Of a stretch of 64,000 nt of DNA, positions 9,191-25,099 are shown in pieces. The translations under genes and the position numbers were made by a program. Origin of the DNA: Actinomyces qiguomingii (GTDB lineage: Bacteria; Actinomycetota; Actinomycetes; Actinomycetales; Actinomycetaceae); the NCBI RefSeq assembly GCF_004102025.1, contig NZ_CP025228.1, positions 3,348,001 through 3,412,000 of the forward strand, written 5' to 3'. Numbering within the stretch: position 1 is the stretch's first letter; each line of letters begins with the position of its first letter. The notes below the pieces were generated by a model. That model made no database searches. It had not been told where the DNA came from and saw only the letters and a list, made by a program, of their open reading frames with translations.

Positions 9191-10192
9191 ATGCCGCGTC
9201 CGATCAATCTGTTCACCGGTCAGTGGGTGGATCTGCCGTTCGAGGAGGTGTGCACGCTGGCGGAGCAGTGGGGCTTTGACGGCCTGGAGGTGCCGGTGGC
9301 CGGGGACCACCTGGACGTCTACCGCGCCGCCACCGACGACGCCTACTGCCAGCAGTGGAAGGACACCCTGCAACGCCACAACCTGAGCGTGTACGCCATC
9401 TCCAACCACTCCACCGGCCAGTGCATCTGCGACGACCCCATCGACTTCCGCCACCGCGGCCTGCTGTCCGACCGCGTGTGGGGCGACGGCGACGCCGAGG
9501 GGGTACGCACCCGCGCCGCCGAGGAACTCAAGCTCACCGCCCGCGTGGCCGCCAAGCTCGGCGCCAAGGTCGTCACCGGCTTCACCGGCTCCAAGATCTG
9601 GAAGTACGTGGCCATGTACCCGCCGGTGGGCGCCGACGTGATCGCCGACGGGTATGAGGACTTCGCCCGCCGTTGGAACCCGATCATCGACGTATTCGAC
9701 TCCGAGGGCGTCAAGTTCGCCCTCGAGGTCCACCCCAGCGAGATCGCCTACGACTACTGGACCACCAAGGCCACCCTGGACGCCATCGACAACCGCGAGG
9801 CCTTCGGCATCAACTGGGACCCCTCCCACATGATCTGGCAGCAGATCGACCCGGCCGTCTTCCTCACCGACTTCGCGAGTCGCATCTACCACGTCCACTG
9901 CAAGGACACCAAGACCCACTTCGACGGGCGCAACGGCCGCCTATCCAGTCACCTGCCCTGGGACGACCCCCGGCGCGGCTGGACCTTCGTCTCCGCCGGC
10001 CTGGGCGAGGCCGACCTGGACGGCTACTTCCGCACGCTGAACCAGATCGGCTACGACGGTCCGATCTCGATCGAATGGGAGGACTCCGGCATGGACCGCC
10101 TGCACGGCGCCCCCATGGCCCTGAAGTTCGCGCGCGAGCACGTCTATGACCTGCCCGACGCCGCCTTCGACTCCCACTTCGACAACCGCTGA
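9191..10192 (+). CDS. Sugar phosphate isomerase/epimerase
   Basis: A 333-residue TIM-barrel protein with the metal-binding set of this family: Glu in FALEVHPSE, Asp in NWDPSHM, His in YHVHCKDTK and Glu in ISIEWEDSGMDR. Related enzymes interconvert keto sugars or inositol-derived intermediates; the substrate is not predictable. The start is supported by GAAGGAG about 7 bases before the ATG. It follows a decayed second isomerase and probably belongs to the same carbohydrate region as the ROK genes and the deglycosidase operon, though nothing downstream shares its operon. Confidence 0.85.
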   Translation: MPRPINLFTGQWVDLPFEEVCTLAEQWGFDGLEVPVAGDHLDVYRAATDDAYCQQWKDTLQRHNLSVYAISNHSTGQCICDDPIDFRHRGLLSDRVWGDGDAEGVRTRAAEELKLTARVAAKLGAKVVTGFTGSKIWKYVAMYPPVGADVIADGYEDFARRWNPIIDVFDSEGVKFALEVHPSEIAYDYWTTKATLDAIDNREAFGINWDPSHMIWQQIDPAVFLTDFASRIYHVHCKDTKTHFDGRNGRLSSHLPWDDPRRGWTFVSAGLGEADLDGYFRTLNQIGYDGPISIEWEDSGMDRLHGAPMALKFAREHVYDLPDAAFDSHFDNR

Positions 10193-10343
10193 GCCTCAGG
10201 ACAGTCAGGCGCGCCGTCACTCGCGCTCGCGACGCACCGCGCCGGCGCCTGGCAGCTTCCAGCAGGAAAGTGCGGGGCACCGGTACCTCATACGGATAGC
10301 CCTCCCCATAGTCGGGTGCGGCACCTGCTGCCACCCTGGGAGC

Positions 10344-12311
10344 ATGCGCACCTCACCCGGCGACGACGTTGCCGCCACAGCCGCCTCGCCCGGACGCCGC
10401 AGCACCGAGTTACTGCGCGGCGTGCGCGCCGGCGGACTACTCACCGCCGTGACCGCAGGAGCCTGGGCCTGGTGGCAAACCGCGCAGTATCACGGCGCAT
10501 TCCGACTCTCCGAGAATGTCCGAAACTCTGCTCTCGGTGGCGGACTTCTCCTGGTTGCGGCCGCGTGCTGCGTCTGGTTGCTGATTGCTTCCGCGATGTC
10601 GCAGATACAACGGCGTCATGCACTGATACGCGCGCTCGTGCCGGCAGTACTGTTCGCCGCCGCTTCGCTCCTGTTCGGCTGGATGTGGTGGCGCGAGTCG
10701 CAGGAAATCCAGATGAGCTACCCGGTGCTCGCACAACTCGCCGTCGCCACCGGCGGACTCGCGGTTGCCGCAGACTCAGACCTGCAACTGCGTAGAACCG
10801 GGCCGCACACCACTAAAGCGCCGACACGCGCAGAGCAACGCCCACGCACGACGACTATCGCGACCGGCGCCTCGGCGGGACCTCTCGCCGTCGCCGTCAT
10901 CGCGTTGACCATCCCCTCAATGATGTACACCCCCACATCAGTACAGGTCGCCGCAACCGAACCAGCACCAATACCAGAAACCTTGACCGATGAGGTGCGC
11001 TGGCAACGAGTCATTGAGCACGGCCGCGACGATGACATCGAGGGTGTGATCGCCGGCGCCGCCGGGCCCATAGTCATCACCAAACACGGCGCCATGGGAC
11101 TCGACCCCAACACCGGCGAAACCACCTGGTCCTACACCCGCCCCGCCGACCTAGATTCCATAGGCGGCGATTGCCACACACGCATGGAGGCCAATTGCAA
11201 AGCAATCCTCACCCCGGATCGCACCCGGCTGGTCATGGGTTACGGTTACAACCCTCTGGAAACGGAATTCGTTGTAGTCAACACCTTTACCGGAGAGGTC
11301 ACCTTCGAGCATGCGTACAAGGATCGCTCTGAACTTGAAGAGAACCGCGGTAGGCCCTGGGTCTACCGGTACCCCAGCGTGCAAGCCACCGATCACGTGC
11401 TCGTGGTCGAGCAGGAGGTGCTGTCTCTGACCGACGGCAGCGTTCTGAGCACGCTGCCGGACGAACGCGCACCGCGACCAAGCCTAGGCAATCGCTCCGA
11501 ATGTCCCCGCGACGATTCTCCCCGGTGCGGAGGTTATCTGCCCCCGTCCCGTGCCGGGCACTCGACCCTCATCCTGGGGATCACCTGCTGGAGCCCGGAC
11601 AACGATCCAGAGAATTATGTCGATTATCCCTGGTGCGAAATGGAAGTGGCGCCGGACAGCGACCCCTCGGCAGTGAGCACAGTCAGCGGAATCGTTCCGC
11701 CTACCCATAGGCGCTGGGAAAACGATTCCGTGGTCGTGGACGGGTGGACCGTGCACTACGCCGACCCGGACGCCGCCTATGAGGAACTGAGTCGGCACAA
11801 CCTGATGGAGGAGGCGACCTCTCTCAGTTTCCCTCTGGAGGCCGTTAGCCTGGACGCCCTTGCCGGAGTCGATGATGCCGAGCCCGTCGCCCTCGGTAGC
11901 CTGAACCGCCCCGAACGCTACGAGGGCGCACACACCCTTGCCGTCCTGGGCGCCGCCGGACCGGACGCGCCGGCCACCGTCCAGGCCTGGTTCGACCCTG
12001 CTACTCGGCAGGTTTTCACTCGCGACGACGTCGGCACCCGCCCCTCCGGTCCTGGCTATCTCGACTCTCTGCACCCCACCGGGTCACGCACGGACGACGG
12101 AATTGACCTGCTTCGTCCCGACGACACCGTAGCAATGCACGTGGACTACCCCGATCAGCGGGAGATTCTCGATTACAAGTCCGAGTACACTCCGTACCTC
12201 GTACAGGCTCCCGGAACAGTAGCGATCGTCGACCACTGCAGCATCTGGCGCACAGACACGAATGACCCCGCCCCCACGGGCTATGAAACCGTCATCTACG
12301 GCGTCGGCTGA
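10344..12311 (+). CDS. Membrane-anchored PQQ-like protein, paralogue 1 of 6
   Basis: A 655-residue protein of unknown function. A short cytoplasmic start is followed by STELLRGVRAGGLLTAV and about five membrane helices (residues about 35-215, including WMWWRESQEIQMSYP), then a large extracellular part with repeated motifs: HGAMGLDPNTGETTWSYTRP, LTPDRTRLVMGY, LSLTDGSVLSTLP, HSTLILG, DGWTVHYADPDAAYEEL, PLEAVSLDALAG, QAPGTVAIVD. The GLDPxTGETTWSYTRP segment is typical of PQQ-binding/quinoprotein-like beta-propellers. Paired Cys residues in CPRDDSPRCGG and in WCE suggest disulphides. The ATG at 10344 follows CACCCT at 6 bases, as in four sister genes. It is separated from paralogue 2 by an IS110 array. 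Confidence 0.75.
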   Translation: MRTSPGDDVAATAASPGRRSTELLRGVRAGGLLTAVTAGAWAWWQTAQYHGAFRLSENVRNSALGGGLLLVAAACCVWLLIASAMSQIQRRHALIRALVPAVLFAAASLLFGWMWWRESQEIQMSYPVLAQLAVATGGLAVAADSDLQLRRTGPHTTKAPTRAEQRPRTTTIATGASAGPLAVAVIALTIPSMMYTPTSVQVAATEPAPIPETLTDEVRWQRVIEHGRDDDIEGVIAGAAGPIVITKHGAMGLDPNTGETTWSYTRPADLDSIGGDCHTRMEANCKAILTPDRTRLVMGYGYNPLETEFVVVNTFTGEVTFEHAYKDRSELEENRGRPWVYRYPSVQATDHVLVVEQEVLSLTDGSVLSTLPDERAPRPSLGNRSECPRDDSPRCGGYLPPSRAGHSTLILGITCWSPDNDPENYVDYPWCEMEVAPDSDPSAVSTVSGIVPPTHRRWENDSVVVDGWTVHYADPDAAYEELSRHNLMEEATSLSFPLEAVSLDALAGVDDAEPVALGSLNRPERYEGAHTLAVLGAAGPDAPATVQAWFDPATRQVFTRDDVGTRPSGPGYLDSLHPTGSRTDDGIDLLRPDDTVAMHVDYPDQREILDYKSEYTPYLVQAPGTVAIVDHCSIWRTDTNDPAPTGYETVIYGVG

Positions 12312-12402
12312 TCCAGCACGGCTGCCACAGTTGATCATGAGTCCATCCCACGGCCAAACCTGGTGCCAGCTACGGTTCTTCCGGTCTAAGCGTGTGTTCG
12401 CC

Positions 12403-12500
12403 GAGTTCGGTAGATATAACCAACGAGTTCGGTCGATATGACGATCGAGTTCGGTCGGTATGACGATCGAGTTCGGTCGTTATTACCATCGAGTTCGGTT
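12403..12500. repeat. 22-bp intergenic array R3 (5 units, GAGTTCGG core)
   Basis: GAGTTCGG at 12403, 12425, 12447, 12469 and 12491, an exact 22-bp period. Linkers vary (tagatataacc, tcgatatgacg, tcggtatgacg, tcgttattacc). It continues directly into the composite-element block that the IS110 array interrupts. Confidence 0.85.
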
Positions 12501-12557
12501 GGTGGGGCTGGCGGGGTGGGGGAAGTGTCCAGATTCGGCACGAACGATGTTCCCCCC
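12489..12557 (+). repeat. Composite repeat element, left part, interrupted by IS110
   Basis: The 68 bases from the last array unit to the IS junction are identical to the reverse complement of about 54203-54270, and similar to 51809-51875. Sister copies continue GCCCGACGCCGCTCACC; here the sequence switches after the C-run into GTTACCTTGTTGG, the IS110 left end. The right part of this copy is not found after the IS array. Confidence 0.8.
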
Positions 12558-13146
12558 GTTACCTTGTTGGTGGTTCCGGGAAGTCCGGGGCCGGGCCAGC
12601 CGCTGTGGGCATGATGTCTTGCCCCTGTCGTTTGATGATCCGGGGGGTGTTGTCACCCATGGTGGCGGGCGGGTGGTGATCGCTGATTAGGGGAACGACC
12701 CGCCGCAGCGCGGCGATGTCTTTCGTAACGTGGGTGCGGGGCCGTCTGCCTGACAGGCTGACCCACCAACGCACGAGAGAGGCGCAGGAAAGGTGAACAT
12801 CGAGGATGTGGAGGTCTTCGTCGGTATCGACGTGGGCAAGGCCGAGCACTGGGCCACGGCCCTGACCGACGACGGGAAGAAGATCTTCGACAAGGCCCTA
12901 CCCAACGACGAATCCAGGCTTAGGGACCTGTACGAGCGTCTGGGTGAGCATGGCCGGGTCCTGGTGGCTGTGGATCAGCCGGCAACGATCGGGGCCCTGG
13001 CGGTGGCGGTGGCTCAGGCGATGGGTATCACCGTGGGCTACCTACCCGGCCTGTCCATGCGCAGGATCGCCGACCTGACCCCGGGCAATGCCAAGACCGA
13101 CGCTCGCGATGCGGCGGTGATCGCGGATGCTGCCCGCACCATGCCC
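12557..13146 (+). mobile_element. IS110-type element, copy 1 (3-prime truncated)
   Basis: A 590-bp segment repeated directly as the first 590 bp of copy 2. It holds the left end, the 235-bp non-coding leader and the first about 118 codons of the transposase (from GTG 12793), then joins the left end of copy 2 at ATGCCCC|GTTACC. The right half is absent, so the element cannot move by itself. Confidence 0.9.
12793..13146 (+). pseudogene. IS110 transposase fragment
   Basis: The first 118 residues of the transposase (NIEDVEVFVGIDVGKAEHWA to DAARTMP), identical in sequence to the complete copy. It then reads into the next element's left end and stops after a chimeric tail at 13269. The RuvC-like Asp residues of GIDVGK and TDARDA are present, but the Ser-containing C-terminal domain is lost. 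Confidence 0.9.
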
Positions 13147-13147
13147 C

Positions 13148-13382
13148 GTTACCTTGTTGGTGGTTCCGGGAAGTCCGGGGCCGGGCCAGCCGCTGTGGGC
13201 ATGATGTCTTGCCCCTGTCGTTTGATGATCCGGGGGGTGTTGTCACCCATGGTGGCGGGCGGGTGGTGATCGCTGATTAGGGGAACGACCCGCCGCAGCG
13301 CGGCGATGTCTTTCGTAACGTGGGTGCGGGGCCGTCTGCCTGACAGGCTGACCCACCAACGCACGAGAGAGGCGCAGGAAAG
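13148..13382 (+). ncRNA. Candidate bridge-RNA region of IS110 copy 2
   Basis: A 235-bp non-coding leader conserved between copies 1 and 2 and, with changes, in copy 3. IS110-group elements encode in this position a structured bridge RNA whose loops pair with target and donor DNA. GC-rich stem-capable segments (GTTCCGGGAAGTCCGGGGCC, CCGGGGGGTG) are visible. The RNA ends cannot be set from sequence alone. Confidence 0.5.
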
Positions 13383-14588
13383 GTGAACATCGAGGATGTG
13401 GAGGTCTTCGTCGGTATCGACGTGGGCAAGGCCGAGCACTGGGCCACGGCCCTGACCGACGACGGGAAGAAGATCTTCGACAAGGCCCTACCCAACGACG
13501 AATCCAGGCTTAGGGACCTGTACGAGCGTCTGGGTGAGCATGGCCGGGTCCTGGTGGCTGTGGATCAGCCGGCAACGATCGGGGCCCTGGCGGTGGCGGT
13601 GGCTCAGGCGATGGGTATCACCGTGGGCTACCTACCCGGCCTGTCCATGCGCAGGATCGCCGACCTGACCCCGGGCAATGCCAAGACCGACGCTCGCGAT
13701 GCGGCGGTGATCGCGGATGCTGCCCGCACCATGCCCCACACGCTGCGAGCGATCGACGCCTCGGACAAGGACGCGGCCGCGTTGAGCATGCTCACAGGGT
13801 TTGACCTGGACCTGGCCCGCCAGGTCAATCAGACCGCTAACCGTATCCGGGGCCTGTACACCCAAATCCACCCAGCCCTGGAGACTGTGCTGGGCAAGTG
13901 GCTCGAACACGACCCAATACTGGAGGTGATCGCCGCCTGGCCCACCCCAGCCCACCTGCGCAAGGCCGGCCGGGCGCGGATTGACGCCAAGCTCAAATCC
14001 AAGGGCGCCAAGCGCCATGCCGCCTGGGCAAAAGCCATCACCGACGCCCTGAACAAGCAGACCGTCGTGGTCGCTGGTACCGACGCGGCCGGGGTGGTGC
14101 TGCCACACCTGGCCCGCCAGCTCATCGCCCTACACGCCCAACGCGACGATGTCGCCGCCCAGGTTGAGGCCCTGGTGGAGGCCCACCCTCTTTACCCGGT
14201 CCTGACCTCCATGCCCGGGGTGGGGGTCAGGACCGCCGCCGTCTTCCTGGCAGAGACCGCGGGCAAGACCTTTCCCTCCGGCGCCCACCTGGCCTCCTAC
14301 GCCGGCCTGACACCAGTCACCCGGCGGTCGGGGTCCTCCATACGCGGCGAGTACGTCTCCCACGCGGGCAACAAGCGCCTCAAGAGAGCCATGTTCCTGT
14401 CAGCCTTCGCCTCCCTCAGATCCGACCCCGCATCCCGGGCCTACTACGACCGCAAACGCGCCCAGGGCAAGCGACACAACCAAGCCATACTCGCACTCGC
14501 ACACCGCCGCATACTCACCCTATACGCCATGATCCGAGACGGATCCCTCTACGACCCACCAGCCCAACAACTACCCGCCGCCGCTTGA
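13383..14588 (+). CDS. IS110 family transposase
   Basis: A 401-residue recombinase. The N-terminal RuvC-like DEDD domain has Asp in VGIDVGK, an acidic position in VAVDQPATIGA, and Asp residues in TDARDAAVIADAAR. The C-terminal Tnp domain has SMPGVGVRTAAVFLAE and the catalytic Ser region SGSSIRGEYVSHAGNKRLKR. Together with a bridge RNA it inserts the element at short, sequence-specified targets without terminal inverted repeats. The GTG start has GAGAGG 10 bases upstream. The gene looks intact, unlike those in the flanking copies. Confidence 0.93.
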   Translation: MNIEDVEVFVGIDVGKAEHWATALTDDGKKIFDKALPNDESRLRDLYERLGEHGRVLVAVDQPATIGALAVAVAQAMGITVGYLPGLSMRRIADLTPGNAKTDARDAAVIADAARTMPHTLRAIDASDKDAAALSMLTGFDLDLARQVNQTANRIRGLYTQIHPALETVLGKWLEHDPILEVIAAWPTPAHLRKAGRARIDAKLKSKGAKRHAAWAKAITDALNKQTVVVAGTDAAGVVLPHLARQLIALHAQRDDVAAQVEALVEAHPLYPVLTSMPGVGVRTAAVFLAETAGKTFPSGAHLASYAGLTPVTRRSGSSIRGEYVSHAGNKRLKRAMFLSAFASLRSDPASRAYYDRKRAQGKRHNQAILALAHRRILTLYAMIRDGSLYDPPAQQLPAAA

Positions 14589-14605
14589 CAAACCACATAG
14601 GGGCA

Positions 14606-15066
14606 CGTTACCTTGTTGGTGGTTCCGGGTGGTCCGGGACCGGGCCAGCCGCTGTGGGCATGGGTGTCTTGCCCCTGTCGTTTGATGATCCGGGGGGCGA
14701 AAGTCACCCATGGTGGCGGGCGGATGGTGATCGCTGATTAGGGGAACGGACCGAGGCGCCTTGGCCTTAGAGTCCTTTCGCAGGCGTGGGTGCGGGGCCG
14801 TCTGCCTGACAGGCTGACCCACCAACACACACAAGGATGCGGAAAGGTGAATATCGAGGATGTGGAGGTCTTCGTCGGTATCGGGCGTGGGCAAGGCCGA
14901 GCACTGGGCCACGGCCCTGACCGTCGGCGGGAAGAAGCTGTTCGACAAGGCCCTTCCCAACAGCCAGAGCCGGCTGCGCGAGGTCTATAAGCACCTGGGC
15001 GAGCACGGCCGGGTCCTGGTAGTGGTAGACCAGCCGGCAACGATCGGCGCCCTGGCAGTGGCGGTC
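14606..15066 (+). mobile_element. IS110-type element, copy 3 (diverged, truncated)
   Basis: It starts with the same left end (GTTACCTTGTTGGTGG) directly after copy 2, with several differences in the leader. Homology to the transposase ends near 15066 after GCAGTGGCGGT, where unrelated DNA begins. Confidence 0.85.
14848..15066 (+). pseudogene. IS110 transposase remnant with frameshift
   Basis: GTG at 14848 begins NIEDVEVFVGIG. An extra base in ATCGGGCGTGGGC (intact copy ATCGACGTGGGC) breaks the frame within GIDVGK, and translation then continues as KAEHWATALTVGGKKLFDKA in another frame. The gene is cut after about 73 codons. Confidence 0.85.
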
Positions 15067-15131
15067 AGTCCCAGGCCGTCCAGGCGCAGGAAACTAGCAA
15101 GATCAGGGACAGCGAAGGTAGTCTCGGCCAT
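15067..15131 (-). pseudogene. Possible start of an ISL3-type transposase
   Basis: On the minus strand an ATG at 15131 reads MAETTFAVPDLASFLRLDGL and then ends at the IS110 copy 3 junction. The phrase resembles the opening of actinobacterial ISL3 transposases (xATFAxPDLTTFxRLDxLGL). It is very short, so this is only a suggestion. Bases 15132-15440 hold no gene; 15190-15255 resembles the right half of the 34-kb hairpin element, ending AAACGCGAAACGC. Confidence 0.35.
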
Positions 15132-15445
15132 CTCGAGGTCTCCGTGATCGGTGGTAGTAAGCGACCCCCAGTCATCGGGGACCTCGACCCACATACACCA
15201 CCCCGACACGCGCACCAACGACCACCCCACCACCACACCCCCAAACGCGAAACGCTACCAAACCCTCGTATCCACCCAACAGGGACAAGCCCCATCGGAG
15301 TCTCCCCCGATCAGGTAGGCCGAATGGGTGATGCCCCTCAGTCTCGTCAAGCGCAAACTCCTCCGGGTGGGCACTTTACCGCGGCCCCTCGGACACATTA
15401 ACTCCTCGACACAAAACACCTTTCCCTTCACTAACAAAGGAAAAC

Positions 15446-15629
15446 ATGCACGACCACCGTACGACCGGATATTGCGGATCTGGACAGTGCCTTCGAGGAC
15501 ATCGAAGTCATCGAACTCGACGAAACCATGATCCTCTCCGAGACTGCCGCTTCCTCGGGAATCTCTTCCTATACCAGTTGCTCCTGCTGCGTCTCGACCT
15601 CCTGTTGCTCGACCCACATCGACGCTTGA
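15446..15629 (+). pseudogene. Thiopeptide-like RiPP precursor, out of frame with its start
   Basis: From 15468 a frame without a start codon reads DIADLDSAFEDIEVIELDE, then TMILSETAASSG, then a core ISSYTSCSCCVSTSCCSTHIDA and a stop at 15627-15629. The acidic leader with IELDE...LSETAAS and a Ser/Thr/Cys-rich tail of about 22 residues (6 Cys) is the pattern of thiazolylpeptide-type precursors. The only good start, ATG 15446 with AAAGGA upstream, is in another frame; removing one base near 15467 would join them as MHDHRTT-DIADLD. So it is a frameshifted gene, a sequencing error, or less likely starts at a rare codon such as ATT 15471. An ABC exporter and a dehydratase fragment follow. Confidence 0.6.
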
Positions 15630-15698
15630 TTTTCTTCCTGAGGGGGCGGGAAACCTACCCCCGTCCCCTCCGTAGACTTGCATAAGGGAACATCGACT

Positions 15699-16397
15699 AT
15701 GCGCGCCACCAACATTTCAAAAATATACGGGGAAAAGACAGCACTGTCACCGATCAGCTTCTCCTTCAATAGCCCCGCCTCTGTAGCCGTCATCGGCCAC
15801 AACGGCTCGGGCAAGACCACTCTGCTCGAGATCCTTATGGGGCTGACCAAGCCGAACACCGGCAACGTCGACTTCAGTAAGGAGACCGAGGGAGTTCCCC
15901 TCAAGGAGCGGATCGGAGTCGTCCTCCAGGAGAACAACTTCTATGAGGATGCTACTGTTATGGAACTTCTCCGCCTCTTCCGCACCTATTACGATCAAAC
16001 ATACGACCTCGGCATGCTCATCGAGATGTTGGGAATTCACAATTTCGTCGACAAACGTTACTCACAGCTATCTGGAGGCATGAAACAGAAGGTAAACCTC
16101 GCGCTGGCGTTCCTCAACAAGCCCGCCGTGGCGATCCTCGACGAGCCCACGACAGGCCTGGACCCCGTGGCTAGGGCGGAGTTCTGGGATAGCCTCGACA
16201 CGCTGTGCCACGGCCGTCTTTTATTCCTGTCCTCCCATTACATGTCCGAGGTCCAGGAGCACTGCAGCCACGTTCTCTTTCTCAACGACAGCCGACTTGT
16301 TTATGCAGGCACCATCAAAGGACTCCTAGCGGAACAGTCCTGCAACGACCTGTCAGACGTCTACCTTAAGATCGCCCGGGAGAGGCAGTCCTCGTGA
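15699..16397 (+). CDS. ABC transporter ATP-binding protein (RiPP-associated exporter or immunity)
   Basis: A 232-residue ATPase with Walker A GHNGSGKTT, signature LSGGMKQK, Walker B AVAILDEPTTGLDP and the H-loop in SSHYMSE. The ATG at 15699 has AAGGGA 9 bases upstream and is preferred to a TTG 7 codons earlier. It overlaps the permease start by 4 bases (GTGA). It lies 69 bases after the RiPP precursor-like sequence, so it most likely exports the peptide or protects the producer. G+C and codon use are lower than in flanking genes (EKTALSPISFSFN, YYDQTYD), a sign of transfer. Confidence 0.88.
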   Translation: MRATNISKIYGEKTALSPISFSFNSPASVAVIGHNGSGKTTLLEILMGLTKPNTGNVDFSKETEGVPLKERIGVVLQENNFYEDATVMELLRLFRTYYDQTYDLGMLIEMLGIHNFVDKRYSQLSGGMKQKVNLALAFLNKPAVAILDEPTTGLDPVARAEFWDSLDTLCHGRLLFLSSHYMSEVQEHCSHVLFLNDSRLVYAGTIKGLLAEQSCNDLSDVYLKIARERQSS

Positions 16398-17137
16398 TAC
16401 TAGAACAACTCAAGATCGAACTCAAGATCTACCTGAGACAACCCCTGTACCTCCTCTTCAGTATCTTGATGCCGGTGGTTAGCTTCGCGATGTTCGGGTC
16501 CATCTACAAGAATTCCTCATACGGAGGGATCGACTTCTTTTCGGCGTACATCCCCGGCTTTTGCGTGATAATCCTGTTTGCCTCTTCCGTTTACAACGTC
16601 GGGAACCAAGTGGTCGCCGACAGAGAGAAAGGGATCTACCGAAGGCTCGGGGTGACGCCAGTCAGCCTGCCGCGCATCATGATGGTAGTCATCATGAAAG
16701 TGTTCCTGGTCGCCATGACCGCCTTCCTGCTCATAATGTTGACGGCCCGATTCATATTCGAGGTGGCCGCACCGAACATGGCGCTGTTCGTGGCGGTCTT
16801 CCTGGTGGCAGTGGTCTACTCGCTACTCTTTGGTTTCGGGATTGGGGCGATCACGCAGAAGATCAACACCTTTTCCGCGGTAATGATGGCGCTGTTCATG
16901 CCGATGATAATCCTCTCCGACGCTACAGTGCCGCTGTCGGTGATGCCCAGGACACTCCAGAACATCGCCGAGGTCAATCCCCTGTACCGCCTCAACCTGG
17001 TCCTACGGGTTGCCTGGAACCCAGAGAACCTGAGTGCTTACCACGACGGTTTCTACATCTCCGTAGTGACCCTACCGGTATTCATGGTCCTGTTCTTGCT
17101 CCTGGTGGCATCACAATGGAACCGCGCGCGCAACTGA
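16394..17137 (+). CDS. ABC-2 type permease
   Basis: A 247-residue membrane protein with about six helices (LLFSILMPVVSFAMFGSIY, YIPGFCVIILFASSVYN, VFLVAMTAFLLIML, MALFVAVFLVAVVYSLLFGF, VMMALFMPMIILSDATVPL, FMVLFLLLVASQW) and the amphipathic DREKGIYRRLGVTPVS loop of ABC-2 exporters. The GTG start overlaps the ATPase stop, making the pair one exporter. The 3-prime end overlaps the ATG of the dehydratase-like fragment at 17116, so the three were once one operon with the precursor. Confidence 0.9.
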   Translation: MILEQLKIELKIYLRQPLYLLFSILMPVVSFAMFGSIYKNSSYGGIDFFSAYIPGFCVIILFASSVYNVGNQVVADREKGIYRRLGVTPVSLPRIMMVVIMKVFLVAMTAFLLIMLTARFIFEVAAPNMALFVAVFLVAVVYSLLFGFGIGAITQKINTFSAVMMALFMPMIILSDATVPLSVMPRTLQNIAEVNPLYRLNLVLRVAWNPENLSAYHDGFYISVVTLPVFMVLFLLLVASQWNRARN

Positions 17138-17580
17138 CTCTCGACATCCATCCGTTCACGATCCGGCGCTCGAAGCTCGACGGCGCTGGCATGTGGGAGC
17201 GTTCCGCTACCGCTCAGGTCCTGGTTGACACCGAGCGCAGTCTAATAGACCTCCGCAAAGACTTACGCAGGCGGGCAACGAGCTCGCGGACGACATTGGT
17301 GCCAGCGTGCGCCAGCGGGACAACCGTCGCCACAAGCTCCTTCACCGTTTACGTAAACTCGACGCCCAGCTGCTCAACACCGAGGCAGACCTCCCGGATC
17401 CTGTTCTCACGCAACGACTACGCGCCATTATGGACGGACTGCAGGCCCTTGAAGACCGGGAACATACCGCCCGCCAGGAGTACTTCGAACGACGCAAGGC
17501 GGCTAGCTCCCGGGCCACACCACTACCAGTCGGAACGGTCCCGGAGGGGGCGGTCTTCTCCTCATCAGTCACAGTCATGA
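17116..17580 (+). pseudogene. Lantibiotic/thiopeptide dehydratase-like N-terminus, frameshifted and truncated
   Basis: ATG 17116, inside the permease end, reads LTLDIHPFTIRRSKLDGAGM and on through a helical stretch to LIDLRKDLRR. A one-base loss near 17276 shifts the frame, after which NELADDIGASVRQRDNRRHK, LLHRLRKLDAQLL and LRAIMDGLQALEDREHTARQ follow logically. This order (beta start FTIR, helix, RR.LL.LRR segment) resembles the N-terminus of LanB/TbtB-type dehydratases that modify Ser/Thr of RiPP precursors. Homology ends near 17560, replaced by repeat DNA, so over 80 percent of such a protein is missing. Confidence 0.5.
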
Positions 17581-17624
17581 CAGTAGGTCCTCTCAATCAG
17601 GGCTTACACACACCATTGAACACG

Positions 17625-17850
17625 CCCCCGGAAGTGCCGAAGCGTTGGTGCCAAGTGACGAACCGTCACCGTTCAAGACGAGCCGTCGCGCGAAGCGTCC
17701 AAGCGCTGGGGTGAAGTGCCGAACTCTCACCCGGGACACACGAGCGAACACCCAGGTCCGCACCCCCGCAACAACACACGCGCGCCCGACAGCGACCACC
17801 ACACCGCAACCCCGACCCTCATCACCACACCCTCAAACCGGAAGAGCCCC
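17625..17850. repeat. Intergenic array element B2
   Basis: AAGTGCCGAAGCGTTGGTG followed by CCAAGTGACGAACCGTCACC at 17632-17670 matches the B1 element near 7191-7230; ACGA(A/G)CCGTC recurs at 17658 and 17678 (20-bp period). A CA-rich stretch follows, ending TCAAACCGGAAGAGCC at 17833-17848, the same end motif as at 52088. It replaces the rest of the dehydratase gene and abuts the upstream block of paralogue 2. Confidence 0.65.
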
Positions 17851-17884
17851 CATTCTCCTCGCCCCAGCCCGCCCACGGGCAGTG

Positions 17885-17926
17885 CGCCCCATGGCCCGGT
17901 GCGGTACCTCCTGCCACTCTGGGAGC
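17885..17926 (+). promoter_or_regulatory. Conserved upstream block of the paralogue family
   Basis: CCCCATGGCCCGGTGCGG and then TACCTCCTGCCACTCT end 6 bases before the ATG. The same order, with few changes, precedes paralogues 1 (10300-10343), 3 (19916-19956) and 5 (23041-23082). CAC(C/T)CT-N6-ATG fits a leaderless -10. No Shine-Dalgarno is present. Confidence 0.6.
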
Positions 17927-19873
17927 ATGCGCACCTCCTCCCGCGACGACGCTGCCGCCACACCCACCCCACCCCAACGCCGCAGCACCGAAATACTGCG
18001 CGGCCTGCGCGCCGGCGGACTGCTCACCGCCGTGGGCGCAGGAGCCTGGGCCTGGTGGCAGACCGCGCACTACAACGGCGTATTCCGACTCTCCGGCGAG
18101 GATCTGGAGGCCGTTTCGTGGGTCGCCATCGGGTCGCTCATGCCCGTGCTGTTCTGGGGCTACTTCGCGCTTTTGGCGCGACACGAACGCCCTGGCCGCC
18201 TACAGAAGACACTCATACTGCTTCTGGTGGCGGCTGCGGCCTTGGCGGGGACTGTCGTGTTCGGCCGCCTGTGGTGGCGCGAGTCGCAAGACATCCAGAT
18301 GAGCTACCCTGCACTGGCGCAGTTCGCCGTCGCCGCGGCCGCTCTGGGCATCGTCGCTATCAGCGACATTCTCATCCGGGGGCGCAACGCATATCGGACC
18401 AGGCCGCGCACTCGACGGCTCCGTCTCCTCCGCCCCACGCTGCCACTGGTGCTGACTGTCATCTTCACCCTCACCGTCGGTGGAACGGCGCTGGCCGCAC
18501 CCACCCGCCTGTATGCCGCCGAGTCCGTACAGGTTGCCGCCGCCCCAGCACCAGCAATACCCGAGTCCTTCACCGACACCGCCGCCTGGCAGTTGACTTT
18601 GGACTACGAGGACACTCGCGTGGAGGGTGTCGTTGCCGGCGCGGCAGGACCGATCCTCGTCACCGATCACGGCGCCATGGGACTCGACCCCCACACTGGC
18701 GAAACCACCTGGTCCTACACCCGCCCCGCCAAGACCGTGCACTTCGGCGCGGGGTGTTGGGAGGCCGGCAACTGGTGCTACGCCGTCCTGTCCCCGGACC
18801 GGAACCACCTCGTGCTGGGCTACGACGCTGGCAGACTCGGAACGCCGCTCGTCGTGCTCAACACCGCCAACGGCGAGGTCGCCTTCGAGCACTATTACAG
18901 CGACCGCACCTGGAAGGGCAAGAACCGGGGGACTGAATTCGACAGACGCGAGGGGCCCAGCATCCAGGTCACCGATAACGTGCTCTGGGTGGGGCAGGAG
19001 ATCCTCTCGCTGACGGACGGTTCCCTCCAGGCGACGCTGTCCGACGATTCTGACGCGCGCTACGGCAGTGAGGGCTGTCCCCGTGACGATGTGCAGTCTT
19101 GCAGGCAACTGTTCCCCCCGGAGCACGGCGGCCACTCCACCCTGGTTCTTGGATCAACCTGCTGGAACCCGAACTATGTCTATGAGGAGAACAACCATGG
19201 CGTTTGGTGCGAGGTGGCCATCGCACCGGACGACGACCCCACGGGCATCATCACGGTGGACGCCGTCGTACCCAAGTCTGCTGCATGGCCGCACCTAGTC
19301 TTCGCGGACGGTTGGACCGTGCGCTACGCCGACCCCGAGGCAGCCTACGCAACTCTGTCCGAGCAGACCTCAAGGGAACAGACCGAGAAACTGAACTTCC
19401 CCCTGGAGGCCGTCAGCATTGACGCTCTCAGCGGCACCGAATCCGCACCGTCCATACCTTTGGGTGAGTTCAACGGCCCCATCGACTACTACGGGATGCA
19501 TCCTCGCACCATCACCCTATTTCAAGCCCAGGCAAACCCTGACGAAACCGGTTCCAGATCCGTGTTCGACACCACCAGCGGTCACATCTACACCTATGAC
19601 GAACTGGCCGAGCAGACCTCCGGCTACACCTACCTCGACTCCCTGCGCTTTAGCAGCAACGGCGCAAGCACCAATGTCATCCGCACCGACGACTCCATCG
19701 CCCTGCTCCTGAGGAACCTGGACCTGAGTCGCAGCGACCTATTTGGCGGTGACCTTGGCACCTATCTCTTACAGGCACCCGGCGTTATCGCCGTAGTGGC
19801 CCGGCAATACACCTTCACCGTGAACGGCGACCTCGACCGCACGACTACAGTCATTGTCGGTTTTTGTGGTTGA
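17927..19873 (+). CDS. Membrane-anchored PQQ-like protein, paralogue 2 of 6
   Basis: 648 residues with the full family layout: STEILRGLRAGGLLTAVGAG, about five membrane helices to residue about 200 (LWWRESQDIQMSYPALAQF in the fourth loop), then the extracellular part with HGAMGLDPHTGETTWSYTRP, LSPDRNHLVLGYDAG, LSLTDGSLQATL, CPRDDVQSC, HSTLVLGSTCW, WCEVAIAPDDDPTG, DGWTVRYADPEAAYATL, PLEAVSIDALSG and QAPGVIAVVA. It is closest to paralogue 1 in the membrane part. It keeps its own upstream block and is followed 83 bases later by paralogue 3. Function unknown; a surface sensor or binding protein is a guess. Confidence 0.75.
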   Translation: MRTSSRDDAAATPTPPQRRSTEILRGLRAGGLLTAVGAGAWAWWQTAHYNGVFRLSGEDLEAVSWVAIGSLMPVLFWGYFALLARHERPGRLQKTLILLLVAAAALAGTVVFGRLWWRESQDIQMSYPALAQFAVAAAALGIVAISDILIRGRNAYRTRPRTRRLRLLRPTLPLVLTVIFTLTVGGTALAAPTRLYAAESVQVAAAPAPAIPESFTDTAAWQLTLDYEDTRVEGVVAGAAGPILVTDHGAMGLDPHTGETTWSYTRPAKTVHFGAGCWEAGNWCYAVLSPDRNHLVLGYDAGRLGTPLVVLNTANGEVAFEHYYSDRTWKGKNRGTEFDRREGPSIQVTDNVLWVGQEILSLTDGSLQATLSDDSDARYGSEGCPRDDVQSCRQLFPPEHGGHSTLVLGSTCWNPNYVYEENNHGVWCEVAIAPDDDPTGIITVDAVVPKSAAWPHLVFADGWTVRYADPEAAYATLSEQTSREQTEKLNFPLEAVSIDALSGTESAPSIPLGEFNGPIDYYGMHPRTITLFQAQANPDETGSRSVFDTTSGHIYTYDELAEQTSGYTYLDSLRFSSNGASTNVIRTDDSIALLLRNLDLSRSDLFGGDLGTYLLQAPGVIAVVARQYTFTVNGDLDRTTTVIVGFCG

Positions 19874-19956
19874 CCGGCCCATTCTCCTCGCCCCCAGCCC
19901 GCCCACGGGCAGTCCGCCCCATGGCCGGGCGTGGTACCTACTGCCACCCTGAAACC

Positions 19957-21492
19957 ATGCACACCTCTTCCGCCGACGACACACGCCTCCGCCCGCCTCG
20001 CCCGGGACGGGCGATCCGTAAAGCAGCTCTGACTACCGCCGTCGCCGTCGGCCTGGTATCGCCCATGCTGGCGGGCTGCACCGACTCGACCCCAATCGCC
20101 ACGCCGTCGACGGCCTCCCCTACCCCCACAACGGCGGCCGTCTCGGTCACCGCCCCCGCAGGCATGGCCGCAGACATCCCGGCGGCCCTGGGGCAACAGG
20201 TGCGCTGGCGACACGTTATCGACAACAACGACGCCGAGATCCACCCCGTCTGGGGCGTGATGGCCGGGGCCTCCGGACCCATTGTCGTCACCGGCCACGG
20301 CGCGATGGGCCTCGACCCCGAAACCGGCGAGACCACCTGGTCCTACCGCGATCCCGAAGCCACCGTGTCAGTCACCGGATACGGCGTGGTCTCCGCCCAG
20401 CGGGCCCACGGCCAGGCGGTACTGAGTCCGGACGGCACTCGCCTGGTTCTCGGCCTGAGCGCGGGCACCGGCAGTTTCGCCACTCGGCTGGTCGGGCTCG
20501 ACACCGGCACCGGAGAGGTGCTGTTCGACCATGAGGTGACCGGCTACGCGATCGTCACCGAGCGGGCCGTAGACCTGCATATCCAGGTCACCGATCACGT
20601 AGTCATGGCCGAACGGGAAGTGATCTCGCTCGAAGACGGCTCCGTCCTGTCCACCCTGCCCCCGGACCCGGCCGTCGTCGACGGCGAGCGGCAATGCCTG
20701 CGCACCGACGTCGGCTCCTGCGAGAGCTTCTGGCCCGGCTCCCAGGGCGGGCACTCCACCCTCATTCTGGATTCGACCTGCTGGAGCCCCGGCCCAACCG
20801 CAACCAGTTGGTGCGAGTTGACCCTGGCCCCCGATGACGACCCCACAGCCTCACGGCGGGTCGGCGGCTTCGTTCCCATCGACCGGGCCACGGGCGACGC
20901 CGAGGGGCAGAGCAATGTCGCCGGGGAGAACCTTGACGGCGTCTACCCCGTTCTGACGCCGCCCGTGCTCGACGGGTGGGCCATCCGCTATAGCGACGCC
21001 AACTCCGCCTACGCCGCCATGCGCGATGAGGACGCTGACCCGCTTTCCCTCCCCCTGGAGGCCGTGAGCCTGGACGCCCTCGTGAGCACCGACGACGTCG
21101 CACCGGTGCCGCTGGGCTCCTCGGGGCGGACCGTGCGTGACTACGGCGCTCGCACTCTGGCGGTGGTGGGCGCGGACGGGAACTCCGGCGACGCGGTGGT
21201 CTTCGACCCGGCCACGCGGCAGGTGCAGGACGTAGACCAAGCTATAGAGCAGGCCACGGGAGCCATTTATCTGGATGCGCTTGCTGTCACCAGATCTGGC
21301 AGCGACCTGGACATCACTCGCCCCGACGGCTCCGTCGCCCTGCACCTGGCCGAATACGAGGCACGCATCGAGCACACCGCCGCCTACCTGGTTCCGGCGC
21401 CCGGCGTGATCGTCGCTGTAGAGCGCCACCGCACTACCACAGAGGACGGGAAGACCGATGAGTCAGAAGTCGTCATCTTCGGCGTCGGCTAG
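19957..21492 (+). CDS. PQQ-like lipoprotein, paralogue 3 of 6
   Basis: 511 residues. Unlike its sisters it lacks the multi-helix membrane region and has a signal peptide with a lipobox (TTAVAVGLVSPMLAGC), so it should be a lipid-anchored exported protein. The extracellular part is the family one: HGAMGLDPETGETTWSYRDP, LSPDGTRLVLGLSAG, ISLEDGSVLSTLP, CLRTDVGSC, HSTLILDSTCW, WCELTLAPDDDPTA, DGWAIRYSDANSAYAAM, PLEAVSLDALV, PAPGVIVAVE. It keeps the upstream block and CACCCT-N6-ATG. Its last 35 bases overlap the start of paralogue 4. Confidence 0.78.
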   Translation: MHTSSADDTRLRPPRPGRAIRKAALTTAVAVGLVSPMLAGCTDSTPIATPSTASPTPTTAAVSVTAPAGMAADIPAALGQQVRWRHVIDNNDAEIHPVWGVMAGASGPIVVTGHGAMGLDPETGETTWSYRDPEATVSVTGYGVVSAQRAHGQAVLSPDGTRLVLGLSAGTGSFATRLVGLDTGTGEVLFDHEVTGYAIVTERAVDLHIQVTDHVVMAEREVISLEDGSVLSTLPPDPAVVDGERQCLRTDVGSCESFWPGSQGGHSTLILDSTCWSPGPTATSWCELTLAPDDDPTASRRVGGFVPIDRATGDAEGQSNVAGENLDGVYPVLTPPVLDGWAIRYSDANSAYAAMRDEDADPLSLPLEAVSLDALVSTDDVAPVPLGSSGRTVRDYGARTLAVVGADGNSGDAVVFDPATRQVQDVDQAIEQATGAIYLDALAVTRSGSDLDITRPDGSVALHLAEYEARIEHTAAYLVPAPGVIVAVERHRTTTEDGKTDESEVVIFGVG

Positions 21493-23020
21493 CGGCTCCG
21501 CGCCCGCCGGCGGCTGCGGCGCCCGGTGCCGCCCGCGCCCCAGCCGGCTGGCCTTCATCGCCACCATCCTCGTACTCGCCGTCGGCGCCGCGGCGCTGGT
21601 AATCCCACAGAGGATGCACGCGCCGGAGTCCGTGCAGGTGCCGCCCGCCGCCGTCGCCCTCAGGCCGGACACTCTCGGCGAGGAGGTCGCCTGGCAGGGG
21701 GTCATCCACTACGACGACCGCGACGCCATAACCGGGGTAACCGCCGGAGCGGCGGGCCCCGTCATCGTTACCGCTCACGGCGCCTCGGGCGTGGAGCCCG
21801 CAACCGGCGAGCAGACCTGGTCCTATACCCGCCCCGCCTCACTCCGCAGAATCGGAAATCCGTGCGAACGCGATGGGGTGCCCGAGCCGCATACCGACGC
21901 CTCGTGCTATGCGGTGCTCACCCCGGATAGAAGCAGGCTCGTCTTGGGCTATGACGCCGGCCCGCTCGGAGTCCTGCTGGTCGTGCTCGATGCTGCCACC
22001 GGCGAGGTCGCCTTCGAGCACATGTATGCATACCGCAGCGACGAGGACAACCGCACCAGTGCTGGCAGACGCGTTGGCATCCACCTCACCGACCGGGTGC
22101 TCATGATGGGAGAGGAGGTGGTGTCCCTCGACGACGGGAGCCGGCTTGCCACGGTTCCCGAAAGCGCGCTTCCCGACCTCGGATTCACCAATGACTGTCC
22201 CCGCGACGACGTGGAGCTGTGCGAGAGGTTGGAGGGGCCGTCAAGCGGCGGTCATGCGACGCTCATTCTCGATCTGACCTGCTGGCGGCCGGACCATGAC
22301 TACGACAAGAACTCGACCTGGTGCGAGGCGCGGATCGCCCCGGACGACGCTCCCACCGCCATCCAGAGCATTGCCGGGGTAGTTCCCGCAGAGAGCGGCG
22401 GACCGGAGGTCATCGAGGGGTGGGTCGTGCGTTACGCCGACCCCGATGCCGCCTACGCGGAGCTGTCCCATAACTCTCGAGAGGACGTCGACGCCAGTGA
22501 GGAGGCCGCCGGGCGCGGCCTCCCCCTCGAGGCCGTGGACCTGGACTCCGTCTCCGGCTCCGAGCCCGCGGTGACGGTGCCGCTGTATGGTTTCGCTAGG
22601 GTCTATTCCTACCGCACCCGGCATCCGTACCGAGTGCTCACCGTCGAGGGCGGGCCCGAGGATGCGGGGCGGTCGGCTGGGGATGCGGCAACCGGCGCGG
22701 CGGCCGAGGCCTTAATTGTTCCGTCCGCGGGCGGGGTGTATACCGCTGCCGAGCTTGCGGGGCAGACGTCCGGAGCCGCCTGGTTGGAGACGCTCAACGT
22801 CCACAGGTCGAAGACCGACGGCGTAAGCGTGATGCGCCCGGATGGTGAGCTCGTCCTGCACCTGAACGACTACCCCGCTGCCGACAATTGGCTCCCGACC
22901 TCCGGGGCCGGCTACGTCCTCCGGGCGCCCGGCGTGATCGCCGTCGTCGATCAGCACGTGGTGGTGGATCAGACGACCAGGAACACCTCCTACGAACTCA
23001 TTATTACCGCGCTGCGCTGA
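21458..23020 (+). CDS. PQQ-like protein with one membrane helix, paralogue 4 of 6
   Basis: 520 residues. The N-terminus is a short Ser/Arg-rich stretch and one helix (LAFIATILVLAVGAAALVI) that aligns with the last helix of paralogues 1, 2, 5 and 6, so the first four helices are missing. The extracellular part has HGASGVEPATGEQTWSYTRP, LTPDRSRLVLGYDAG, VSLDDGSRLATVP, CPRDDVELC, HATLILDLTCW, WCEARIAPDDAPTA, EGWVVRYADPDAAYAEL, PLEAVDLDSVSG and RAPGVIAVVD. Its ATG lies inside the end of paralogue 3 in another frame, without the family upstream block. Translation is probably coupled. Confidence 0.75.
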   Translation: MSQKSSSSASASGSAPAGGCGARCRPRPSRLAFIATILVLAVGAAALVIPQRMHAPESVQVPPAAVALRPDTLGEEVAWQGVIHYDDRDAITGVTAGAAGPVIVTAHGASGVEPATGEQTWSYTRPASLRRIGNPCERDGVPEPHTDASCYAVLTPDRSRLVLGYDAGPLGVLLVVLDAATGEVAFEHMYAYRSDEDNRTSAGRRVGIHLTDRVLMMGEEVVSLDDGSRLATVPESALPDLGFTNDCPRDDVELCERLEGPSSGGHATLILDLTCWRPDHDYDKNSTWCEARIAPDDAPTAIQSIAGVVPAESGGPEVIEGWVVRYADPDAAYAELSHNSREDVDASEEAAGRGLPLEAVDLDSVSGSEPAVTVPLYGFARVYSYRTRHPYRVLTVEGGPEDAGRSAGDAATGAAAEALIVPSAGGVYTAAELAGQTSGAAWLETLNVHRSKTDGVSVMRPDGELVLHLNDYPAADNWLPTSGAGYVLRAPGVIAVVDQHVVVDQTTRNTSYELIITALR

Positions 23021-23082
23021 GTCGGTTGGCACGGGCAGCCCACCCCATGGCCGCGTGCGGCGCCTTCTGCCACCCTCGACTC

Positions 23083-25023
23083 ATGGCCACCGACGACGAC
23101 GCCCCACCCTCCCAGACCACGCCCGGATCGCAGTCCCCGCGACGTAACCGGATTCGGAACCAAACCCGGCGCGCCAGCATCCTGCGCGGCCTGCGCGCCG
23201 GCGGACTACTGGCCGCCGTCATGGCAGCAGCCTGGGCCTGGTGGCAGGCCAGGCAGAACCCGGGCATGTTAGGCCCACACAGCAACGGCTTGGATCCACT
23301 CTTGCTCTCCTTCATCCTGCTCCTCACAGCTGCGACGGTCTGGACCTTTTACGCCTACATAGTCGAGCCGGCAGACAGTCCCCGTCCCCGACGTACGCTC
23401 CTGCTCGCCGCGCTACTTGTACTGATTCCCTCAACCATCGCTGTAGTTCTGCTCGGCAGGTACTGGTGGCAACGCTCCCAAACCATTGGTCTCCCCTACC
23501 CGGTGCTCTCCCAACTCGCCATCGCCTCCGCCGGGATCGGCGTCGCACTCACCGCCGGCCTCCTGCTGCACCTGGAACGCGACAGTCGTACACCTTCTAA
23601 ACAACCTCTACGACGCCGCCTCCGCCCCTCTCGAACCACGACGGCGGTCGCCGTCCTCACCATCGCCGCCGCCACCACCGCACTCACACTGCCGGGCCTG
23701 ACCTTTCCAGCCCGGTCCGTCGAGGTGTCTGGTCTCCGCCCCGCGTCTGTCCCGAACGCGCTAGGCGAGCAGATTCTGTGGCAGCGCGCCTTTGACAACA
23801 ACGAGTCCGACTCGCTCAGATACGTCGTTTCCGGAACAACCGGCCCCATCGCCATCACCGACCACGGGGCCCAGGGTCTGGACCCCCAAACCGGCGAGAC
23901 CACCTGGTCCTACACCCGCCCGGCATCGACATTCAGCCTTTGCGGATACAAACATGACTCCGGCGCGTGCTACGCGGCCTTGAGCCCCAATCGCGCGCAT
24001 ATGGTGCTCGCCTACCACGCCGGTTTCGGACGCACCCTGTTCGTAGGTATTAATACCACCACCGGGCATGCGGATTTCGAATATATGCACCACTCCCCCG
24101 CCGATACGGATCCGGCGCAGTACCGCAGACAGATCACCGACCATGTGTTCGTATCAGGCCCGGAAATCATCTCTCTTGCCGACGGCAGTCAGCTGGCCAC
24201 ACTGCCGGAAGTAACCATGCCGAGTTGCGACGGACATTCATTTTGCTTCACGTCCCCTGTCCTGCACGACCCATCCAATTTGCAGGGAGGGCACTCAACC
24301 CTCATCCTCGGAGCATACTGTCCAAACACACTACCGATGGGCCCCGAGAGCATCTGGTGCGAAATGGTGGTGGCCCCTGACGACGACCTCACCGCCATCA
24401 CCACCGTCAATGGCATCCTACCCACGGATAATAATGGGCCAGTCGTAGCGAATGGGTGGACCGTGCGTCTCCACGACCCCGACGCCGCCAATCAGGAAAT
24501 AAGCGAACAGCTCGGGACAAGCCACAGCCGTCCCGTGGATGCAGTCAGCCTCGACGCCCTGTCCGGCGCTGACAACACCGCCCCGATTCCCCTCGGCGAC
24601 CTAATTCAACCCCTCAACAACAACGGCTCCTGTACACTGACAGTGCAGGGTGCTTCTTCGACCGAGGTCGTCTTCGATCCCGCCACCGGACAGGTCAACA
24701 CCACTCAGGAACTCACCGAACGAGCGTACGGCCCCGGCTACCTAAACACCCTCACCGTCGAGGAGCCCCGAGAAATATCGGAGCAACCGGACGGAAGCAT
24801 ATCCGTGGAATACACGGGAATTGACATACACAACGCCGACAACAAGATTGCAATGCACCTGGATCACGCCGATCTCGCCGCCGCCGGCGGAACCCTGGCC
24901 TACTACCACGACGGCTACCTCGTGCCCGCGCCCGGCGTCGTGGCACTGGTCTATGACCGCGCCGTCGTAGACGACAATAACGGAACCAGCAACCACCAAA
25001 CCGTGGTGGTCGGCCTCGGCTAG
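23083..25023 (+). CDS. Membrane-anchored PQQ-like protein, paralogue 5 of 6
   Basis: 646 residues with the full layout: SILRGLRAGGLLAAVMAAAW, several membrane helices, RYWWQRSQTIGLPYPVLSQL, a last helix near residue 190, then HGAQGLDPQTGETTWSYTRP, LSPNRAHMVLAYHAG, ISLADGSQLATLP, HSTLILGAYC, WCEMVVAPDDDLTA, NGWTVRLHDPDAANQEI, DAVSLDALSG and PAPGVVALVYD. CACCCT-N6-ATG and the upstream block are present. The CPRDD pair of paralogues 1, 2 and 4 is replaced by other Cys residues (MPSCDGHSFC). It is followed after 76 bases by paralogue 6, which it resembles most in the middle region (FVGI.T.TG..FE.MHH). Confidence 0.75.
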   Translation: MATDDDAPPSQTTPGSQSPRRNRIRNQTRRASILRGLRAGGLLAAVMAAAWAWWQARQNPGMLGPHSNGLDPLLLSFILLLTAATVWTFYAYIVEPADSPRPRRTLLLAALLVLIPSTIAVVLLGRYWWQRSQTIGLPYPVLSQLAIASAGIGVALTAGLLLHLERDSRTPSKQPLRRRLRPSRTTTAVAVLTIAAATTALTLPGLTFPARSVEVSGLRPASVPNALGEQILWQRAFDNNESDSLRYVVSGTTGPIAITDHGAQGLDPQTGETTWSYTRPASTFSLCGYKHDSGACYAALSPNRAHMVLAYHAGFGRTLFVGINTTTGHADFEYMHHSPADTDPAQYRRQITDHVFVSGPEIISLADGSQLATLPEVTMPSCDGHSFCFTSPVLHDPSNLQGGHSTLILGAYCPNTLPMGPESIWCEMVVAPDDDLTAITTVNGILPTDNNGPVVANGWTVRLHDPDAANQEISEQLGTSHSRPVDAVSLDALSGADNTAPIPLGDLIQPLNNNGSCTLTVQGASSTEVVFDPATGQVNTTQELTERAYGPGYLNTLTVEEPREISEQPDGSISVEYTGIDIHNADNKIAMHLDHADLAAAGGTLAYYHDGYLVPAPGVVALVYDRAVVDDNNGTSNHQTVVVGLG

Positions 25024-25099
25024 AAAGCCGCCGCGGTCGACCGAGGACGACGACACCTCGAACGCACCCTACTCCGCCGTCGGCTGACATGCTTTGACC

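Follow-up and report, generated by a model that had tools for sequence, protein, structure and literature searches.

A probable remnant of a thiopeptide gene cluster with an intact ABC transporter pair in Actinomyces qiguomingii

Within a stretch of 64,000 nucleotides of the Actinomyces qiguomingii genome, analysed as a whole and referred to as the window, we found a locus that is most probably the remnant of a horizontally acquired thiopeptide cluster and is now dead. After its acquisition the precursor would have been put out of frame, a core cysteine lost, the dehydratase gene broken and the other enzymes removed. The peptide would no longer be made, since a ribosome starting at 15446 leaves the leader frame and since the modifying enzymes are missing.

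Reading frame and identity of the precursor

The ATG codon at 15446 is preceded by the sequence AAAGGA (15436-15441). The precursor presumably once started here, with this ribosome-binding site and its ATG (15436-15448, forward strand). Read from this ATG the DNA encodes an unrelated 79-aa frame, MHDHRTTGYCGSG..., such that the start no longer shares the frame of leader and core. Both are found in the +1 frame, which is open on the forward strand from 15435, following a TAA at 15432-15434, to a TGA at 15627-15629. Its translation reads ...DLDSAFEDIEVIELDETMILSETAASSG followed by ISSYTSCSCCVSTSCCSTHIDA, where the leader carries the motif LSETAASSG and the latter part constitutes the core region (15561-15626, forward strand). 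The ATG at 15446 is located 46 bases upstream of the conserved Phe of the leader; in intact relatives this distance amounts to 9 to 33 codons. A preliminary description of this DNA had placed an ATG with a perfect ribosome-binding site one base off the precursor frame; the site is indeed a good one and the ATG is in another frame. It had also counted 6 Cys and about 10 Ser/Thr in the tail; the 10 Ser/Thr are correct, while the number of Cys is 5. In frame with leader and core there is no ATG, GTG or TTG before the ATG at 15528, which lies inside the leader. Judged from its sequence, the precursor of the window cannot be started normally.

The +1 frame exceeded the cut-offs of three curated models for thiazolylpeptide precursors: PF19409 with 47.7 bits (E 1.3e-12, cut-off 23.5 bits), NF033400 with 42.5 bits (cut-off 30) and TIGR03892 with 27.3 bits (cut-off 25). 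A single-sequence homologue search with the precursor frame returned no homologue, and an alignment search provided 134 proteins, of which 120 were listed, out of 7,987 scored candidates. The proposal of a thiazolylpeptide precursor, to be checked with RiPP models, is thus borne out by the three models as well as by relatives that carry nearly the same leader and core beside orthologous ABC genes. By these comparisons the frame 15435-15629 is a thiopeptide precursor and not a chance reading. It shares with the precursors described by the three models the leader and the Cys/Ser-rich core but differs from them in being out of frame with its start, in having Tyr for the first core Cys and in missing its enzymes. 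The closest named actinobacterial precursor, a thiazolylpeptide-type bacteriocin of Actinomyces oris (P0030), has nearly the same leader and core but is in frame and has the Cys. Four core and leader strings gave no match in the literature.

The precursor was the sole PF19409 match in the whole 3,988,549-base genome, and among 49 genomes of the genus the model matched in 2. The other one (G012) has a different core, TNCFCYPCCSCS. This thiopeptide-like precursor, at C1:1321746-1321835 of that genome (locus L006, 1474-1644) with the core region TNCFCYPCCSCSAPSSSSA, adjoins transposase-like sequence.

The first core Cys of thiopeptides normally gives rise to the thiazole adjoining the central ring. 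At this position, after the first core Ser pair, the window has a TAT codon (15570-15572) and thus Tyr, where all seven intact relatives have Cys. Of the 20 homologues closest in leader, 18 keep the Cys; the other two (P0093, P0138) diverge or end earlier. Among the 120 listed homologues 12 did not fit the pattern used for counting, and of the 108 that did, 97 have the Cys; a Tyr occurs in none of the remaining 11. Considering all invariant columns, the precursor shows exchanges in 3 of 29 (T to I, C to Y, V to T); for every one of the seven intact relatives the count was 0 of 26. The corresponding numbers were 0 of 37 for the permease of the locus (16 relatives) and 1 of 58 for its ATPase (8 relatives aligned), giving 3/29 for the precursor versus 1/95 for the ABC genes (one-sided P 0.04).

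Intact relatives and missing enzymes

We compared the locus with related clusters, using 18 of 23 proteins related to the permease for a genome scan that yielded 10 loci in 10 genomes. A PF19409 precursor was present in 7 of these genomes and was located directly upstream of the ABC pair in all seven loci. The gene order of the relatives is precursor, ATPase, permease and dehydratase-like gene. In L021 and L024-L027 the ABC pair is followed by this dehydratase-like protein of ~830 aa, proteins of ~350 aa and 300-490 aa, a YcaO and proteins of 420-465 aa, ~280 aa and ~260 aa. For L021, a TIGR03891 (thiopep_ocin) protein and a SagB dehydrogenase were matched above cut-off, a YcaO/SagD-type protein below cut-off and TbtD/PbtD weakly. 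As far as these comparisons reach, the ancestral type is a cluster whose carriers are for the most part Firmicutes, Lactobacillus johnsonii plasmids among its locations. The plasmids CP016630.1 and CP024782.1, Gracilibacillus, Lachnospiraceae and Bombilactobacillus share with the window the order precursor-ATPase-permease-dehydratase. They carry YcaO, SagB and other enzyme genes, whereas the window stops within the first enzyme gene.

The L021 contig (JALFQD010000087.1), filed as a Clostridium MAG, is identical to the L. johnsonii plasmids at 99.97% over 12 kb and at 100% over 8.7 kb, and is probably mis-binned. On the plasmid of L. johnsonii BS15 (CP016630.1, L042) ATPase and permease are in pieces at 9577-10752 and the enzyme ORFs are open; on the pf01 plasmid (L041) both ABC genes are whole.

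The preliminary description would have been contradicted if homologues and RiPP enzymes at the same place were lacking everywhere, yet the Firmicute relatives have both. The comparison with related strains that it suggested succeeded for these homologous clusters but not within the window's own family, where the other 212 of 213 genomes held no relative of precursor and permease. Searching viral contigs gave no match, and the accessible part of a Rothia paper (PMC13347742) contains no account of this cluster.

Following the permease gene we found the stump of a dehydratase-like gene (17134-17477, forward strand) in two different frames, matched by the L021 protein in tblastn with E 1.0e-6. The segment 17134-17178 corresponds to residues 1-15 and the segment 17268-17477 to residues 42-111 of the 829 residues of this protein. 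The dehydratase-like protein of L026 matched the stump as well (tblastn E 0.008), while the other 23 of 25 cluster query proteins had no tblastn match in the 64-kb window at E 0.01. For the ~829-aa protein itself there was no confident Pfam or NCBIfam name, DUF1664 being the only match and below cut-off. A profile of five ~830-aa members matched TbtB (PDB 6ec7) over residues 700-814 with E 3.7e-12. A search with the predicted fold gave 11 matches with E <= 0.001, all of them dehydratases of the TbtB/GodF/NisB/MadB/MibB type. TbtB was the best match (E 9.4e-24, TM-score 0.39), obtained with a fold model of middling quality (mean pLDDT 67.5, pTM 0.53). The ~830-aa protein is, according to profile and model, very likely the tRNA-dependent dehydratase component. 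When testing for a functional cluster, the dehydratase-like stump was all that we found beside the precursor; YcaO, SagB and a pyridine-forming enzyme were not found there. A PF04738 search of the own genome gave no match, nor did it match any control.

YcaO and PF14028 have a single match each in the genome, located at C1:96 kb and 105 kb, which is 3.26 Mb from the relic along the contig or ~720 kb on a circular contig. Both are part of another cluster (G000 C1:96027-107818, loci L004 and L005) with YcaO (TIGR03604, 338 bits), a TIGR03882 protein, a TIGR03891 protein, SagB-like proteins below cut-off and an own ABC pair. This cluster also contains four short tandem precursor-like ORFs of 52-55 aa (100384-101132). 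They have leaders like MEVLPEGNALG, and their Ser-rich cores differ from that of the window; PF19409 matched none of these four peptides.

These enzymes allow one to conceive a live precursor that is translated by programmed frameshifting or from a non-standard start and receives its modifications in trans from the cluster at C1:96-107 kb. The other cluster would supply YcaO, the TIGR03882 and TIGR03891 proteins and SagB-like proteins, and the near-cognate codons ATT 15471 and CTG 15480 are in frame with the precursor. However, the cluster comes with its own four peptides, whose leaders and cores are different, the near-cognate codons are far downstream from the ribosome-binding site, and the Tyr in place of the first core Cys cannot become a thiazole. 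We did not see a slippery site either, and programmed frameshifting, which the preliminary description had listed among three readings of the frame break, was rejected as it found no supporting evidence. Overall, a live precursor is highly improbable.

The second of these readings, a misread base, would imply that the break is an artefact of sequencing or assembly and that the living cell has its precursor in frame. Errors are most commonly of this kind, with a single change of frame within a short stretch, and the leader is otherwise nearly perfect. An error may apply to the frame break alone, but would leave the Tyr at an invariant Cys, the frame-broken stump and the missing enzymes unexplained. 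Moreover, the assembly is a single contig rated 99.99% complete. We consider such an artefact unlikely. A newly dead gene, the remaining reading, fits best to the Cys to Tyr exchange, the frame-broken stump and the location of the sole YcaO in the other cluster.

Surroundings of the locus

Upstream of the precursor the DNA is rich in insertion sequences. Directly upstream of the island we found the end fragment of an ISL3-family element (15058-15251) that is 86.7% identical to an ISL3 element at C1:108 kb, which encodes a PF01610 transposase. Before it lies a full-length IS110-family transposase gene (13383-14588, forward strand; NF033542, 235.5 bits, cut-off 140), followed by an IS110 fragment (14606-15065, forward strand) with 85.6% identity to 12557-13010 and 13147-13600. 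The region 12557-15065 can be described as an IS110 tandem in which two copies of the left end are accompanied by a full-length gene and a diverged fragment; the first two left ends match the fragment identically. The GC content of precursor, ATPase and permease is 55-56%, compared to 66% for the window. Large ORFs of ~520-740 aa that look paralogous and share motifs, e.g. DHGAMGLDP.TGETTWSYTRP, occupy 10146-27172 on both sides of the relic.

Taken together, the departures from invariant columns, the Cys to Tyr exchange, the low GC content and the flanking IS fragments suggest that the cluster was acquired from outside, truncated and decayed. The IS elements were likely involved in this.

The ABC transporter pair

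Both ABC genes are intact. The ATPase of 232 aa starts at ATG 15699 (15699-16397, forward strand; PF00005, E 7.1e-29) and is 40-55% identical to 8 aligned relatives. The ABC-2 permease of 247 aa (16394-17137, forward strand; PF01061, E 3e-21) is 88% identical to an unplaced metagenome protein and 49-65% to the other listed relatives. Their named sources include Arcanobacterium hippocoleae, Rothia, a Coprococcus MAG, Gracilibacillus, Enterococcus rotai and Lactobacillus johnsonii. Among 49 genomes of the genus no close relative of the permease was found, the best other match having 58.3 bits and 25% identity versus 509.6 bits for the permease itself. The pair has in common with DrrAB- and SagH-type exporters only the general type: the ATPase resembles drrA (141.9 bits) and the permease drrB (58.2) and SagH (46.5), far below the cut-offs of 312, 223 and 450. 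Phages gave 971 records with the ATPase, the best ones listed being ~30% identical and none of them specific.

Between the precursor stop and the ATPase start an RNA hairpin with an 11-pair stem and a 9-base loop is predicted (15640-15670, forward strand), which is a possible attenuator. Separating a bacteriocin gene from the genes downstream by an attenuator is a common design. Compared to shuffled sequences the hairpin was strong for a 57-base stretch (z -3.5, 0 of 200 shuffles as strong) and less so for a 74-base stretch (z -2.0, 8 of 200). Folding the precursor-ATPase gap of seven relatives gave long hairpins in five, as judged by eye with no shuffle control. An Rfam scan of 12000-18000 had no match. 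The out-of-frame precursor and the hairpin might now have the sole function of a leader ORF and attenuator controlling the expression of the ABC pair. The strength of the hairpin and the hairpins predicted at the same place in relatives would agree with this role, as would the intact precursors kept in the absence of YcaO by Lachnospira multipara and Lentilactobacillus diolivorans (see below). A promoter scan of the forward strand upstream of the precursor, however, found no promoter-like match, and a terminator scan made no call at the hairpin, whose 9-base loop exceeds the limit of the scan. We regard this role as quite improbable.

Transporter pairs of this type also occur without production enzymes. 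YcaO was undetectable in 5 of the 10 genomes with the permease (L022, L023, L028, L029, L030), though several relatives are MAGs, for which absence is weak evidence. L022 and L023 are Lachnospira, 98.2% alike over 1.7 kb, and L029 and L030 are 98.7% alike; the set comprises at most three lineages besides the window. L029 and L030 lack a precursor, and a cluster may never have been present in them. Genomes that keep an intact precursor but no YcaO are those of Lachnospira multipara and Lentilactobacillus diolivorans DSM 14421 (loci L023 and L028). Among 24 Lentilactobacillus genomes the permease was present only in the central one itself, leaving long retention unsupported there. Both L022 and L023 carry dehydratase stumps. 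Between them the ABC genes differ by 12 synonymous and 8 nonsynonymous changes (P 1.5e-4 versus neutrality), the stump by 4 synonymous and 10 nonsynonymous changes (P 0.27). The contrast between the two falls short of significance by itself (one-sided Fisher P 0.07), and some of the divergence may predate the enzyme loss. These sequence changes favour selection on the ABC pair without production, short of proving it.

For the window, the pair may have been kept for exporting such a thiopeptide or warding it off when neighbours make it, which would provide immunity without the cost of production. Retention for self-protection is the reading that we favour, as possible though short of probable. 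The plasmid of L. johnsonii BS15 shows the reverse, namely ABC genes in pieces and open enzyme ORFs. Furthermore, the pair could be intact merely because the locus died recently. In that case of plain decay it would be as dead as the rest and simply not yet hit, for which there is a real chance as well. This is a single locus with a recent loss in IS-rich surroundings, and the departures of permease and ATPase from invariant columns are within the relatives' own range (0-9 and 0-4), giving no sign either way on the branch of the window. Plain decay is opposed by the YcaO-less ABC pairs of other lineages and by the synonymous excess in Lachnospira.

More generally, the ABC pair of this thiopeptide family might, as a rather tentative proposal, be a portable immunity module. 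Lachnospira, Lentilactobacillus diolivorans and this actinobacterium would have lost the enzymes and kept the transporter, with a dead or idle precursor ORF and the hairpin left as control element. Such strains would be immune non-producers where relatives still make the thiopeptide. Micrococcin P1 clusters resemble the window in that a thiopeptide is made from a short precursor by related types of enzymes. The presumed basis of their immunity is TclQ, a paralogue of ribosomal protein L11, in the accessible part of the source (PMC12724294). On this partial account, ABC-type immunity of the present family would therefore be a different solution.

For genome mining the locus is a warning, as three precursor models match though presumably nothing can be made. 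By itself it would be a dead gene cluster, and its importance lies in being one case of a transporter pair without enzymes in several lineages. If the pair represents retained immunity, its two genes would be candidate self-protection genes of this thiopeptide family.
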